Below, one piece after another: positions 7,683-15,301 of a stretch of DNA of 36,052 bases. Origin of the DNA: Halorubrum coriense DSM 10284 (GTDB taxonomy: Archaea; Halobacteriota; Halobacteria; Halobacteriales; Haloferacaceae). The first letter of the stretch is position 1; each line of letters opens with the position of its first letter. Position numbers and translations under genes: made by a program. The notes beneath the pieces were generated by a model that made no database searches, was not told where the DNA came from, and worked only from the letters and a program-made list of their open reading frames with translations. The stretch is from positions 61,389 to 97,440 of the forward strand of contig NZ_AOJL01000027.1 of assembly GCF_000337035.1 (NCBI RefSeq), in the 5' to 3' direction.

Positions 7683-8330
7683 ATGAACCGCGACGAGTTC
7701 GCCGCCAGCATCGACCACACCGTCCTCGGCCCGGAGACGACGTGGGCCGACGTGCGGACCGTTCTCGACGAGGCCGCGACCCACGGGATGAACGCGTGTA
7801 TCCCGCCGTGTTACGTCGCCGAGGCGGTCGCGTCCGAGGCCGAGCCCGAGGCGATCGCCACCGTGGTCGGGTTCCCGCACGGACAGCACGACCCCGCGGT
7901 CAAGCGCGACGAGGCGGTCGCGGCGTGGGAGGACGGCGCGGACGAGATCGACCTCGTGATCAACGTCGGCCGGCTGAAGGCCGGCGACGACGGCGCGGTC
8001 GCCGACGAGCTCGCGGACGTCGTCGCGGCCGTGCCCGTCCCCGTGAAGGTGATAATCGAGACCGCGCTCCTCGACGACGACGAGAAGCGCCGCGCCTGCG
8101 ATGCCGCGGTCGCCGCGGACGCCGACATGGTGAAGACGTCGACCGGCTTCGCCGACGGCGGCGCGACCGTCCCCGACGTCGAACTGCTGAGCGAGTACCT
8201 GCCGGTGAAGGCCTCCGGCGGCGTCGGCTCCTACGACGAGGCGACGGCCATGCTCGACGCCGGCGCGGTGCGGATCGGCGCGTCCTCCGGCGTCGCCATC
8301 GTCGAGGGACACCCAGAGAGCGGGGACTAG
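7683..8330 (+). CDS. deoC: Deoxyribose-phosphate aldolase
   Basis: A 215-residue TIM-barrel class I aldolase that splits 2-deoxyribose-5-phosphate into acetaldehyde and glyceraldehyde-3-phosphate, the last step in using the sugar of deoxynucleosides. The Schiff-base lysine is in MVKTSTGF (Lys151), the second active-site lysine in PVKASGG (Lys176) and the proton-relay aspartate in EIDLVIN (Asp90). The N-terminal SIDHTVL is also characteristic. Length fits the short archaeal type. CCTTTTAG (about 7652-7660), some 27 nt upstream, predicts a leaderless mRNA. It converges with the transducer gene (33-bp gap), whose lipoprotein partner is of the nucleoside-binding PnrA family; this context hints at nucleoside sensing plus catabolism. 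Confidence 0.95.
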
Positions 8331-8362
8331 AGCCGCCGCCGCCGACGACCCGAGGGCGGGGA

Positions 8363-10810
8363 CTAACGCTCGTCGGTCGAGGGCGGTCGCCCGTCGCCGT
8401 CGGCGGCGAGCCCGTCTCCGAGCGGCGACTCGTCAGTGTCTCCGACGGATCCGCTCTCCGCGTCCCGTCCTTCGTCGCTCCCGCCCCTCGCGTCGCTCTC
8501 GGCCACGTCGTCTCCCCCGGTCGCGTCGACGCCGTCGGACTCCGCGTTCTCGGCCCCGTCGGGATCGACGTCGACCTCGAAGGCGGAGACCGACTCGGCG
8601 AGCGAGTCGGCCTGCCCGCGGAGCCGGTCGGCGTTCTCCGCGATGGTGGCGACGGTCGCGGTCTGCTCCTCCGCGGCCGCGGACACCTGCTCGGAGCCGG
8701 CGGCGACCTCCCCGCTCACCTCGGCGACGTCCTCGACCCCCTCGACCGCGCGCTGCGTCGACCGGGCCTGGTCCTCGGCCGCCTCGCTTATTTCCTGGAC
8801 GCCGTGGTTCGTCTCCTCGACGGCGTCGACGACCGCTTCGAGCGACGACGAGGCCTCGCGGACGGTGTCGGCCCCCTCGTCGATCCGCTCGTTTGTCTCG
8901 CGGATGTCGTCGACGGTCGCGTCGGTCTCGTCGCGGACCGTCGCGATCTGCGACTCGATCTCGGCGGCGGCCTCCTGCGTCTCCTCGGCGAGGTCCTTGA
9001 CCTCGTCGGCGACGACCGCGAATCCCTCGCCGGCCTCGCCGGCGCGGGCCGCCTCGATCGAGGCGTTCAGCGCGAGGATGTTCGTCTGCTCGGCCACGTC
9101 GGTGATGAACTCGACCACCTCGTCGATCTCGTCCATCCGGTCGTCGAGCGACTCCATCTGCTCGACCGCGGCCGCGGAGCGCGCCTCGATCGCGTCCATC
9201 TCGTCGAGCGCCTCCGCGGCCGCCTCGCGACCGGCCTCGCCGCGCTCGGAGGCGGCCTCGGCGGTCTCAGCGACGGACGCGGCGGACGAGGCGACCTCCT
9301 CGATGCTCGCGGAGAGGTCGCTCATCTCGTCGCTCACCTCGTCGAGGCGCTCGTCCTGACTGATCGCGCCGTCGGCGATCTCCTGTATCTGCTCGCTGAC
9401 GGTCCCGCTCGCGGTCTCGACCTCGTCGGCACCGGCGGCGAGCTCCGCGCTCGCCGAGTCGACCTCGCCGGCGAAGGCGGCGACCCGCGCGGTGGTCCGC
9501 TCCAGCTGGGCGACCATGTCGTTGAACTCCTCGGCGATCTCGCGCATCGCCTCGCGGTCCGCGTCCGGGTCCATCCGGCGCGTGAGGTCGCCGTCCGCGA
9601 CCGCGCCCATCACCTCGCTGTAGTCGGCCGCGCGCGCCTCCATGTCGCGGGTGACGGCCTCCGCCTCCTCGCGGGCCGCCTCGGCCTCGTCGGCGGCGGT
9701 CTCGGCCTCGGCGATCCGGTTCCGGAGCGCGTCCCGCATCTCGCCGAAGCTCGTGAACAGGCGGCCGATCTCGTCGATCCGCCCGGTCGACAGGTCGACG
9801 TCGAGGTCGCCCGACTCGATCCGCTCGGCGCGGTTGCGGAGCCGCGAGAGCGGGAGCACCGTGCGGGTCCCGAGCACGGCGCCCACGACGCCCAGCGAGG
9901 CGAGCGTCAGGAGGACGAGGAGCAGCACGGAGTTCCCCACGTCGTTGCGGACGGCGAACGCCGTCGACTGGTCGACGCTCGTGACGGCCACCCAGTCGGT
10001 CTCGGGGACCGAGGCGTACGCGTGGACCTGCCCGTCGCCGATCCGCGTCGCGGTCGTGGCGTTGCCCTCCCGGACCGTCTCGATGCCGTCGGCGTGCGCC
10101 GCCTCGTCGACCGTGCCGTCGATGTCGAGGACGGTCTGCCCCGCGGCGTTGAGGATCATCGTCTCCTCGCCGGTGTCGCTGTTCTGGATGCGTTCGAGCT
10201 GCGGCTGGATGCGGGTGACCACGACGAGGTACCGGCCGTCGGCCCGCGGGACCGAGCTGGCGAACGCCATCACCGGCCGGTCGTTGAGTACGGGCGACCG
10301 GTACGAGCGGTCCGACCGCCAGACGCGGTCGTCCGCGCCGACCCCCTCGGGGACGTCCGCGTCGCTCCACGGCGCGTCGAGGTCGCTCGGCGCGCGCCCC
10401 TCCAAGGGCCGTTCAGTGCTGGCGACGACCCGGTCCTGCGCCGCGTCGACGAGGTGGATGCTGACGATGTCGTCGGAGAGCAGCTGGTCTTTCAACAGCA
10501 CGTACGCCGGCGCTCGACGGTCGGACCGGAGCGCGTCGGCCGCCGACATCGACCGCGTCTCGGTGCGCATCCGGTCGGTCCACGAGCCGATCGCGTCGGC
10601 CTGGAGGCCGCCGGTCTCCGCGAGCTGCGTCGTCGCGTCGGACTCCACGGTCTCTCCGGTCTGGAGGTAGGTGAACGCGCCCCCGGCGGCGACGACGGCC
10701 GCGACCACGAGGAACGCCAGCGCGAACTTCGCGGCGTATCGGCGACGCACCGCGTCCGGGAGGAGCCGGCCGACGGCGCGCACCAGACGCCGGAACGAGT
10801 CGGAGGCCAT
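8363..10810 (-). CDS. Methyl-accepting chemotaxis transducer (Htr type)
   Basis: An 815-residue membrane receptor. Helix 1 is at about residues 27-50. An extracellular domain of about 240 residues follows, including a Cache-like region around [16 protein letters not shown] and [21 protein letters not shown]. Helix 2 is at about 290-313, then a HAMP domain, a second HAMP-like segment (near [12 protein letters not shown]), and a long coiled-coil signalling domain whose tip reads [17 protein letters not shown] (about 570-585) followed by [20 protein letters not shown]. This tip binds CheA and CheW. The tail is very acidic and disordered. Its ATG shares one base with the stop codon of the upstream BMP lipoprotein gene, so the two are translationally coupled and probably act together, like the BasB-BasT and CosB-CosT pairs of Halobacterium (family knowledge; the ligand here is inferred). 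Confidence 0.92.
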
Positions 10811-11973
10811 CAGTTCACCGCCTCCGGGTCCGTGGGGACCGACAGGTCGCCGTCGACGATCCGGTCGCCGGAGTCGGTGATCGCGGCGCGCACGTCGTCG
10901 GGGATCACCGGCCCGAGCGACGTTCCGTAGACGAGCGCGACCCCGTCCTCGGCGAGACCGAGCGCCGTCGTGGAGCCGGTGTCGAGGTCGCCGTCGATCG
11001 TCTCCTCGACGGCGTCGTACACCGCGGTGCCGACCCGCTTCACCATCGACGCCAGGATGACGTCCGCGTACCGGGGGTTGCTGCGCGACTGGTCGGAGTC
11101 GACGCCGATCGCGTACCGGCCGTACTCCTGGGCCGCCTGGAACACGCCGAGGCCGCTGCCGCCGGCCGCGTGGTACACCACGTCGGCCCCCTGTTCGAAC
11201 ATCTCCGCGGCGGCGGCGTACCCGCCCTCGGGGTCGTCGAACGCGCCGAGGTACGTGGACAGCACCGACACGTCCGCGGTCGCGTGGGCGACGCCGGCGC
11301 GGTAGCCGGCCTCGAACTTGCGGACGAGCGGCGAGTCGACGCCGCCGACGTAGCCGACGGTCCGCTCGTCGGGGACGGTCGCCCCCGCGCCGACGGACAG
11401 GTCGCGGTCGGTCACCAGCCCGGCGAGGTGGCCGGCCTGGAACGACCCCTCGTGCTCGCGGAACACGTAGCTCGCCACGTTGTCGCTGTCGACGACGGAG
11501 TCGACGATGACATACTGCTGGTCGGGGTGTTCGCCCGCGACCGTCGAGAGGGCGTCCCCCTGAAGGAAGCCGATACAGCAGATCAGGTCGTACGCGGGGT
11601 CGCTCGACGCCGAGAGCGCGGCCTGCGTGGCCTCGAACTCCGGGATCGATGTCGGCTCCTCGTTCGCGAACGCCACGTCGTAGTCGAGGCGAGCGCGCTG
11701 GATACCCCTGTTCGCGGCGTCGTTGAACGACCGGTCGTCGAGCCCGCCGAGCGCGTATATCATCCCGACCGTCGCGCCGGCGTCGTCTGCGTTAGTGATC
11801 GCGTCGCCCCCGTCGTCTCCCGTTCCGTCGCCCGCCCCGTCGTCGCCGGCGTCCATCGACGCCGTCCCGCTGGGATCCGTTCCCAGACACCCCGCGACGG
11901 CGGCCGCGGTTCCCGATCCGAGGGCGACGGCGAACCGCCGACGTGAGGCCGTGACACGTCTCTCTTTAGTCAT
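10810..11973 (-). CDS. BMP/PnrA-family substrate-binding lipoprotein
   Basis: A 387-residue extracellular lipoprotein. A Tat signal SRRRFAVAL (residues 10-18) and lipobox VAGC (Cys29) are followed by an acidic Gly/Asp linker and a BMP (basic membrane protein) domain. Family motifs seen are [15 protein letters not shown] at the ligand-proximal N-terminus, IGVDSDQS and [15 protein letters not shown]. Characterised members (PnrA, BmpA and relatives) bind nucleosides. Such proteins usually feed an ABC importer, but here the next gene, overlapping by one base, is a chemotaxis transducer and no permease is nearby, so a sensory role is likely (inference). On the minus strand GGTTTTGTCA (about 11997-12006) is a box A at leaderless distance from the ATG at 11973. 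Confidence 0.9.
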
Positions 11974-12666: not shown

Positions 12667-13473
12667 CTACGGGTGCGCGCCGATCAGCTCCCTGACGCGA
12701 CCGACGTACTCCGCGAACGCGGCGTCGCCGCGCTCGCGGGGGCGCTCGACGTCGACGTCGACGACCTGCCGGACGCGCCCGGGCTCCGCGGCCATCACCA
12801 CGATCCGATCGGCGAGCGTCACCGCCTCCGCCACGTCGTGCGTCACGAAGAGGACGGTCTTGCCCGTAGAGGCCCACACGTCGAGCAGCTCCCGCTGGAG
12901 CATCTCGCGGGTTTGCGCGTCCACCGCGCCGAACGGCTCGTCCATCAGCAGCAGGTCCGGATCCACCGCGAGCGCCCGCGCGATGGCGACGCGCTGTTTC
13001 ATCCCGCCCGACAGCGATTTCGGGTAGGCGCCCCGGAACTCCGTCAGCCCGACGAGGTCCAGCATCTCGTCGACCCGCGCTTCGCGCTCGGCGGCCGGCC
13101 GGTCGCTCCGTTCGAGGCCGAACCCGACGTTCTCCTCGACGGTCAGCCACGGGAACAGGTGGTACTCCTGGAACACCACGCCCATGTCCGTCGTCGGGGC
13201 CGTGACCTCGGTGCCGTCGAGCAGGACCCGGCCGTCCGTCGCCTCGGTCAGCCCGGCCACGACCCGGAACAGCGTCGTCTTCCCGCAGCCGGACGGCCCG
13301 ACGAGACAGACGAACTCGCCGTCCGCGACCGAGAAGGACACGTCGTCGAGCGCGCGCACCGGCTCGCCGTCGCCGTCGGCCGCGTACGTCTTGCCGACCC
13401 GGTCGAGGGCGACGCTCGCCGCCGCGGGAGAGCTGGACGCGCCGGCGTCGCCGACGGTCCCGTCGTCGTTCAC
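12667..13473 (-). CDS. NitT/TauT-type ABC transporter ATP-binding protein
   Basis: A 268-residue ATPase subunit of an importer in the nitrate/sulfonate/taurine family (SsuB/TauB/NrtD-like). It has Walker A GPSGCGKTT, Q-loop VVFQEYHLFPW, signature LSGGMKQR, Walker B LLLMDEPFGAVD and switch His in FVTHD. The GTG at 13473 is chosen because it overlaps the permease stop codon as GTGA, the classic 4-base coupling; another in-frame GTG at 13482 lies inside the permease gene. It is the last gene of a three-gene operon (binding protein, permease, ATPase). No metabolic gene nearby fixes the substrate. Confidence 0.92.
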   Translation of the reverse strand: MNDDGTVGDAGASSSPAAASVALDRVGKTYAADGDGEPVRALDDVSFSVADGEFVCLVGPSGCGKTTLFRVVAGLTEATDGRVLLDGTEVTAPTTDMGVVFQEYHLFPWLTVEENVGFGLERSDRPAAEREARVDEMLDLVGLTEFRGAYPKSLSGGMKQRVAIARALAVDPDLLLMDEPFGAVDAQTREMLQRELLDVWASTGKTVLFVTHDVAEAVTLADRIVVMAAEPGRVRQVVDVDVERPRERGDAAFAEYVGRVRELIGAHP

Positions 13474-14273
13474 GCCCGCCACGCCAACACCCTCCGTTCG
13501 ACCGCGCGGAACGCGACGTCGACGAGCAGGAACATCAGGCTCAACACGAGGATGTACGCGATCGCCCGGTCGACGCGTAGGTTGTTGCTGGCGCGGATGA
13601 TCTCGCGGCCGACCCCGGGGACGCCGAATATCTCCGAGGCGACGACGAGCATCCAACACCGTCCCAGTCCGGTCCGGATCCCGGTCATGATCCCCGGCAT
13701 CGAGGCCGGCAGCACGATCGACCGGACCGCGTCGAGGTCGCCGCGGACCCCGAGCGTCCGGCCAACGTCGAGCAGGTCCTCGGAGACGCCCTCCACCGCG
13801 CCGTACGCCGCGTAGAAGTTGATCCAGAACGCGCCGACGGCGATGATGAACGCCGCGCCGGCGTCGTTGATCCCGAACCACGCGATCGCGAAGCCGATCA
13901 GCGCGAGCGGCGGGACGGGGCGCAGCGTCCGGACGAGCGGCGCGGTCAGGTCGTCGAGCACCCGGCTCCAGGCGAACGCGACTCCGGCGGCGACGCCGAG
14001 CCCGGTCCCGACCGCGGTGCCCGGGATCCAGTGGCGGACGCTCTGCGAGAGCGCCGCGGTCATGTCGCCCGAGGCGAGCTCCCCGGCGAACGCCTCGGCG
14101 ACGGCGACGGGCGAGGGGAGGACGAACGGGTCCTGCGTGAGCGAGACGGCGTGCCAGACGAGGAGGAACGCCGCGACGCCGACCGCCCCGCGGCGCAGGC
14201 GTCGGCCGTCGCCGAGCGCGAGGCTCGCGAACCCCTCGTCGCCGCCGACGCGCGGTCCGGTTTCGGTCGCCAT
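13470..14273 (-). CDS. NitT/TauT-type ABC transporter permease
   Basis: A 267-residue inner-membrane subunit with about six helices (the first around residues 31-48) and the BPD_transp_1 coupling loop, seen as DVGRTLGVRGDLDAVRSIVLPASMPGIMTGIR, which docks on the ATPase; the usual EAA-G motif is degenerate. The family feature IAWFGIND before the loop matches SsuC/TauC-type permeases. Its ATG shares one base with the stop codon of the binding-protein gene, and its own stop overlaps the ATPase GTG by four bases, so the three subunits are made together. Confidence 0.92.
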   Translation of the reverse strand: MATETGPRVGGDEGFASLALGDGRRLRRGAVGVAAFLLVWHAVSLTQDPFVLPSPVAVAEAFAGELASGDMTAALSQSVRHWIPGTAVGTGLGVAAGVAFAWSRVLDDLTAPLVRTLRPVPPLALIGFAIAWFGINDAGAAFIIAVGAFWINFYAAYGAVEGVSEDLLDVGRTLGVRGDLDAVRSIVLPASMPGIMTGIRTGLGRCWMLVVASEIFGVPGVGREIIRASNNLRVDRAIAYILVLSLMFLLVDVAFRAVERRVLAWRA

Positions 14274-15301
14274 CAGAGCGAGTCGTACACCTCGAGGTCG
14301 AATATCGCGTCGGTCGACAGCTGCTCGTCGATCTGGTCGTTTCCGGCCGCGAACTCGGAGAACACCTGCGTCGCCTCCGTGATCTCGTTGGGGTCGGTGA
14401 TGAAGTTCGACAGCGGCGAGTCGAGCGCCTGCCGCGCGCGGTCGGCCCGCATCCCGATCCCCTCCTCGACGTGGCCCGCGGTCGCGTCGGGGTTCTCGCC
14501 GATGAACTCGGTCGCGCGGACGTGCTGTTCGAGGAACTGCGTCGCGAGCGGGGAGTCCCGGACCTCGTCGCTCATCATGGTGACCGCGGCGGGCTGACCG
14601 GGGAGGACCTCGGCCGCCGTCCGCAGCATCGTCACCGACGACTCCTCCGCCTGCGCGATGGTCGGCACCGGCTCCATGATCGAGGTGCCGTCGATCTCGT
14701 CGTTGGCGATCGCCTGCCAGACGGAGCTTGCGCCGCTGATCTCGATGATCTTGACGCTGTCGTTCGCGGCGGGGTCGACGCCGACGTCGCGGAGCCAGTA
14801 GCGGAGCAGCACGTCCGGGACGCTCCCCTGCGGGAACGTGCCGAAGGTGAACGGCTCGCCCCGCTCTTCGGCCCACGTCGCGAACGCGTCGGCGCCCTGC
14901 CGTTCGAACGTCTCGTGGAACGAGGACTCGGCCATGATTCCCATCGGCTCCCGGATGTTCGCGGCGGTCACTTGCGCGGCGATGCCGCGGTCGATCGCGA
15001 TCATCGCGGGGACGATCCCGAACATCGCGACGTCGATGTCGCTGCCGCCGAGCGCCCGGACGATGTCGGGGCCGTTGCCGAACTCCTGACCGGTGACCTC
15101 GGCGTCGATCTCCGAGAAGTACCCCTCGCCCTCCATCACGTACCACTGGAGGTCGGGGTAGATCGGCATGTGCGCGACCGTCAGCTCGTCGAGTCCGCCG
15201 CCGCCGGAGCCGCCGAGGCAGCCGGCGAGTCCGACCGTCGCAGTTCCGCCCGCCGCCGCGAGGAACGACCGCCGCGACGCTGTCCGCGTTGGTTCGTACA
15301 T
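14273..15301 (-). CDS. NitT/TauT-type substrate-binding lipoprotein
   Basis: A 342-residue extracellular binding protein. It has a Tat motif SRRSFLAAAGG (residues 9-19) and lipobox GLAGC (Cys28), then a Gly/Ser linker and a type II periplasmic-binding fold related to SsuA/TauA/NrtA. Typical features are the early strand LTVAHMPIYPDLQWYVMEGEGYFSE and the ALGGSDIDVAMFGIVPAMIA segment that forms one side of the ligand cleft. Candidate substrates are nitrate, sulfonates, taurine or pyrimidine precursors; I cannot choose between them. The 222-bp upstream gap includes a weak box A candidate (minus strand TTTTGATTT, about 15374-15383) and no gene. Confidence 0.9.
   Translation of the reverse strand: MYEPTRTASRRSFLAAAGGTATVGLAGCLGGSGGGGLDELTVAHMPIYPDLQWYVMEGEGYFSEIDAEVTGQEFGNGPDIVRALGGSDIDVAMFGIVPAMIAIDRGIAAQVTAANIREPMGIMAESSFHETFERQGADAFATWAEERGEPFTFGTFPQGSVPDVLLRYWLRDVGVDPAANDSVKIIEISGASSVWQAIANDEIDGTSIMEPVPTIAQAEESSVTMLRTAAEVLPGQPAAVTMMSDEVRDSPLATQFLEQHVRATEFIGENPDATAGHVEEGIGMRADRARQALDSPLSNFITDPNEITEATQVFSEFAAGNDQIDEQLSTDAIFDLEVYDSL

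Follow-up and report, generated by a model that had tools for sequence, protein, structure and literature searches.

A gene for a lipoprotein of the Bmp/PnrA family and a gene for a chemotaxis transducer (MCP) overlap in the analysed window (the whole stretch of 36,052 nucleotides from Halorubrum coriense DSM 10284) and are almost certainly a sensor pair. We consider it likely that the two genes form an operon for binding-protein chemotaxis of the BasB-BasT type, in which the Bmp protein would bind a nucleoside. The features concerned are as follows (positions in the window):

10810 to 11973, minus strand: Bmp/PnrA-family Tat lipoprotein, 387 aa (PF02608, PDB relatives, residue mapping, Tat motif and lipobox)
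8363 to 10810, minus strand: chemotaxis transducer (MCP), 815 aa (Pfam, hydropathy, AF2 model)
10808 to 10812, minus strand: one-base stop/start overlap (TGATG) from the Bmp gene into the MCP gene (read from the sequence)
7683 to 8330, plus strand: deoC (deoxyribose-phosphate aldolase; TIGR00126), the convergent neighbour, judged to lie outside the module

An earlier sequence-only reading of this DNA had called the three genes at these positions, and all three were confirmed as real genes. The overlap that it described was also found: on the coding strand the junction reads GGTGAACTGATGGCC, where the A of the Bmp stop codon TGA is the A of the transducer start codon ATG. The deoC product matched the TIGR00126 equivalog with 188.7 bits (cut-off 117.3), and 32 bp lie between the deoC stop and the MCP stop. 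As that reading had noted, the Bmp gene has neither a permease gene nor an ATPase gene directly beside it; the nearby NMT1-type ABC operon (12667-15301, minus strand) has its own binding protein in addition to a permease and an ATPase. This operon is kept in most of the Halorubrum relatives read at the pair locus.

The transducer was recognised in Pfam by its MCPsignal (147 bits) and HAMP (62 bits) domains, and the hydropathy profile revealed two hydrophobic stretches (TM1, approximately residues 24-51; TM2, approximately residues 290-319). The order is thus TM1, an extracellular dCache-like domain, TM2, HAMP and an MCP signalling domain with the consensus hairpin tip. The match of the sensor piece to dCache_1 was weak (25.9 bits, cut-off 45); eight of ten transducer orthologues matched this family, and an AF2 model of residues 30-310 (mean pLDDT 60) matched dCache domains, with VIA as the best (Z 15.4) and most of the listed rows at Z 12-14. 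The genome that carries the pair also has genes for chemotaxis and the archaellum: 17 MCP matches above the Pfam cut-off, three archaellin matches and CheW were found.

Conservation of the pairing was assessed by searching 391 Halobacteria genomes with the sensor domains from ten pairs (threshold E < 1e-120). An orthologous transducer was found in 40 of them, belonging to nine genera and five families (14 Halorubrum genomes and members of eight other genera), and when coordinates were compared by reading, a Bmp gene was directly upstream on the same strand in all 40. The adjacency anticipated for other Halobacteria is therefore kept, and the pairing is not due to chance: with 17 MCPs among roughly 3,600 genes (an assumed gene number), an MCP would be found directly downstream of a given Bmp with a probability of about 0.2%. 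Named pair loci came from Halorubrum, Haloarcula, Halobacterium, Halorhabdus and one MAG. At every junction measured, the genes were in tandem with an overlap or a small gap. Halorubrum relatives showed overlaps of 1 bp and 4 bp; the overlap was 1 bp in Haloarcula and in two genomes of Halobacterium, and 4 bp in H. salinarum (L106, L194), whereas at three more distant loci (L070, L098, L110) the genes lay a few bp apart. A few pair loci are approximately 100-150 bp apart, a distance taken between domain matches and not start codons. In a tree of 128 Bmps, calculated with a quick method, a branch with an SH-aLRT value of 99 grouped all 34 MCP-linked Bmps together, and 87 ABC-linked Bmps fell outside this clade. 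Because the MCP-linked Bmps form one clade, the tree points to a probable single origin of the pair in Halobacteria, after which the two genes stayed together. Among the matches listed for a wider phylum sample, none to Bmp from beyond Halobacteria was strong. At one locus (L210:8312-15812), a Peripla_BP_6-MCP pair lies in tandem behind a Bmp-MCP pair.

The lipoprotein matched Bmp (PF02608) with 196 bits compared to a curated cut-off of 24.1, and this was the sole Pfam family matched. Its N-terminus reads as a Tat motif (SRRRF) and a lipobox (AVAGC, Cys29), and the protein is a predicted extracellular ligand-binding receptor. Relatives in the PDB were 7x0r, 4pev, 6yab, 6shu, 9q1u and 2fqw (E 1e-31 or better), the nearest solved proteins being Lbp, an Aeropyrum Bmp, pneumococcal PnrA, BmpD, BmpA and TmpC. 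PnrA/TmpC, BmpD, BmpA, Lbp and pneumococcal PnrA, which share the family and the contact residues with the window protein, have been described as nucleoside binders (PMC13325309, PMC7093131). These proteins have been assigned to ABC transporters as their binding proteins, whereas the window Bmp is encoded with a chemotaxis transducer.

Contact residues were mapped to F83, D158, F220, F245, D292 and K312 of the window Bmp. The studies of BmpD and BmpA name F27 and F176 as the stacking Phe residues and D98, D225 and K242 as the sugar contacts (PMC7093131, PMC13325309), and in our alignment, which reproduced the published TmpC numbering (D27, F186), BmpA F27, D98, F176, D225 and K242 correspond to F83, D158, F245, D292 and K312. 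TmpC, Lbp and pneumococcal PnrA carry the same five residues. All 33 MCP-linked Bmps whose sequence spans the site have the Phe-Phe sandwich and the Asp/Asp/Lys set unchanged (one further MCP-linked Bmp without its N-terminus is outside the 33), and pocket columns were 99.5% conserved in the MCP-linked clade compared to 74.5% overall. A comparison with the PnrA ligand residues had been proposed as a check on the nucleoside reading, and Phe/Phe, Asp, Asp and Lys are indeed kept in the window Bmp and the MCP-linked clade, but the base-edge Asp is not: this residue, present in TmpC (D27), BmpD (D19), Lbp and PnrA, is Ala74 in the window Bmp. MCP-linked Bmps have Ala or Ser at this position, most haloarchaeal Bmps have Ala, and since TmpC D27 touches the base, base specificity may differ. 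The five-residue signature is common to nearly all Bmps sampled, in a sample that contains no non-nucleoside Bmp as a control, and it therefore indicates that the pocket is kept and does not separate nucleoside binders from others. An AF2 model of the window Bmp, built from a shallow alignment, had a pLDDT of 49 and was set aside as too poor.

The ABC-linked sister Bmps adjoin genes resembling those for cytidine deaminase, uridine phosphorylase and thymidine phosphorylase (neighbours named by eye), and they are also found beside a nucleoside hydrolase with a ribokinase-like PfkB and DeoC (by eye except DeoC). Since the contact residues are invariant and the ABC-linked relatives lie beside nucleoside-catabolism genes, the sequence comparisons make a nucleoside the likely ligand of the MCP-linked Bmp. 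The additional Bmp gene present in every pair-bearing genome (see below) also speaks for the nucleoside reading. Next to the pair itself, no nucleoside genes were recognised by eye outside Halorubrum. Two Halobacteriales MAGs (L134, L150) harbour Bmp clusters of the ABC-linked type with an apparent nucleoside hydrolase, a PfkB kinase and a DeoC-like aldolase.

A sensor of the same build could instead respond to a ligand other than a nucleoside, e.g. a sugar, a nucleobase, riboflavin or a B6 vitamer. For some Bmp-family chains, a different ligand is known or annotated (atrazine-binding 6pi5; the NCBIfam B6 model), Bmp proteins have mostly been predicted to bind sugars (PMC9602780), and the replacement of TmpC D27 by Ala74 would be compatible with such a change. 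However, the aromatic sandwich and sugar contacts are fully conserved, the window Bmp scored 51 bits against a cut-off of 400 in the NCBIfam B6 model, and BmpD and BmpA bind nucleosides and not ribose (PMC7093131, PMC13325309). We therefore regard a non-nucleoside ligand as unlikely.

For the nucleoside-sensing pair, we propose that the Bmp/PnrA lipoprotein would be exported by the Tat route and anchored outside the cell, where it would close on a nucleoside stacked between F83 and F245, and D158, D292 and K312 would hold the sugar. Once closed, the Bmp would dock on the dCache domain of the transducer encoded with it, and HAMP and the MCP hairpin of this transducer would relay the signal to CheA/CheW and the archaellum. 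We infer the ligand class, the docking and the attractant response, and the pair probably lets cells swim towards nucleosides. The dCache domain itself could also act as a ligand binder. This possibility is part of another explanation, in which the Bmp would mainly serve the ABC nucleoside importer (contig 39) as an additional binding protein, the transducer would sense its own ligand via dCache, and the operon arrangement would exist without functional coupling. The dCache-like fold of the transducer is in keeping with such an arrangement, and pair-bearing genomes always had a further Bmp gene (40 of 40, compared to 239 of 351 other genomes; Fisher p value of 6e-7, kinship ignored), which was ABC-linked where the locus was read. 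However, the ABC operon encodes its own Bmp (L033), the presumed OE2170R of H. salinarum (see below) co-purifies with the transducer Htr6 (PMC3579733), and the Bmp and the transducer occur together in 40 of 40 genomes, so that we consider this explanation very improbable.

The sequence-only reading had also taken the neighbouring deoC as a pointer to a nucleoside ligand, and this part was not upheld. Searches found deoC in 52 of 52 Halorubrum genomes. At every Halorubrum pair locus with an available flank, it is the convergent neighbour of the pair, and among the pair-less Halorubrum loci read, it adjoins a 74-aa gene in 14 of 16 (in L243 and L244, deoC is elsewhere); in the window, the pair lies between deoC and this 74-aa gene. 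One of the 14, in a pair-less Halorubrum (L237:9387-9949), has a degraded piece of the 3' part of the transducer gene between deoC and the 74-aa gene, and this apparent remnant points to loss of the pair there. The pair thus comes and goes, while deoC stays. A search for deoC at the pair in other Halobacteria had been proposed, and none of the pair loci read beyond Halorubrum had a deoC nearby. H. salinarum carries deoC next to basB, in divergent orientation (L190:10536-12513), and BasT, the transducer of the basB-encoded protein, responds to branched-chain and sulphur amino acids (PMC3579733). The positions of deoC beside basB-basT in H. salinarum and beside Bmp-MCP in Halorubrum may both be coincidence. 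Because deoC stays without the pair, is absent beside the pair at the loci read in other genera and adjoins an amino-acid sensor gene in H. salinarum, its position says little about the ligand, and a partnership of deoC with the pair was dropped as an argument for the ligand. A three-gene module, in which deoC would work with the pair and the deoxynucleosides sensed would supply the sugar that DeoC breaks down, would account for the convergent deoC at all Halorubrum pair loci with a flank, but is highly improbable given the pair-less loci, the L237 remnant, the other genera read and the deoC next to basB. Overall, the nucleoside module first suggested was retained for the Bmp-transducer pair and its seemingly nucleoside-type pocket, and given up for deoC.

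Among known systems, the window pair resembles BasB-BasT (ligands Leu, Ile, Val, Met and Cys; PMC3579733), where the lipoprotein gene likewise overlaps the gene of a two-TM transducer with dCache-like, HAMP and MCP domains; in the window, too, a lipid-anchored secreted binding protein stands next to a two-TM/HAMP/MCP transducer. CosB-CosT (compatible osmolytes) follows the same lipoprotein-transducer scheme but differs in the family of its binding protein. The BasB locus encodes a Peripla_BP_6 protein (PF13458) and the CosB locus an OpuAC protein (PF04069), neither of which is a Bmp, so that the Bmp pair adds a third binding-protein family to the scheme. The possibility that BasB is a Bmp protein, and the window pair simply BasB-BasT, was ruled out by the same family assignment. 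The suggestion of a BasB-BasT-like pair with a PnrA-type partner was thereby borne out, the pair being conserved across Halobacteria with its contact residues kept. A second overlapping lipoprotein-transducer pair (Peripla_BP_6 and MCP, BasB-BasT-like) was observed on the same contig (contig 27, approximately 52-56 kb; L207:7923-11560), about 15 kb from the Bmp pair. E. coli Tap mediates a response to pyrimidine deoxyribonucleosides, which has been inferred to be indirect via a binding protein (PMC12584664); this is nucleoside chemotaxis as predicted for the window pair, but by a bacterial receptor.

In H. salinarum DSM 3754, a single contig carries an MCP gene with a downstream lipoprotein gene, a lone MCP gene and a Bmp-MCP pair with the Bmp gene directly upstream of the transducer gene. 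The locus tags htr18/OE2196F, htr4 and OE2170R/htr6 have been listed for this species (PMC3579733), and the three MCP genes on the contig correspond in order and strands to htr18 + OE2196F, htr4 and OE2170R + htr6. From this match of gene order and strand, the H. salinarum pair is most likely OE2170R-Htr6. OE2170R was reported as a "putative periplasmic binding protein" that co-purified with transducers, and signals were listed for only 8 of 18 H. salinarum transducers, Htr6 not being among them (PMC3579733, 2012). The system is therefore already known in part, as a co-purifying binding protein and transducer in the presumed orthologue; in a literature search of partial coverage, we found no ligand assigned to Htr6 and no description of Bmp-MCP pairs. 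The arrangement, which is real and conserved, is of the known BasB/BasT kind, and what is new is the predicted ligand class. We consider it reasonably probable that haloarchaea possess an extracellular chemosensor dedicated to nucleosides, made of a copy of the binding protein of their nucleoside importer and a dCache transducer coupled to it, and that this is also the function of Htr6 in H. salinarum. The sequence-based ligand class makes the function of Htr6, an orphan receptor of a model archaeon, specifically and cheaply testable. If true, archaeal binding-protein chemotaxis would extend to nucleosides, which would fit the use of extracellular DNA, as a phosphorus source, by saltern communities including haloarchaea (PMC8443641). 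The window pair and the presumed Htr6-OE2170R pair both have a Bmp lipoprotein gene directly upstream of the transducer gene, but the window pair adjoins deoC and the H. salinarum pair does not. On the H. salinarum contig, the presumed OE2196F lipoprotein gene (L192:7978-9228, minus strand) is downstream of and overlaps the gene of the Htr18-like transducer; its product had no Pfam match at E 1e-3 and may represent a further binding-protein family in the scheme.
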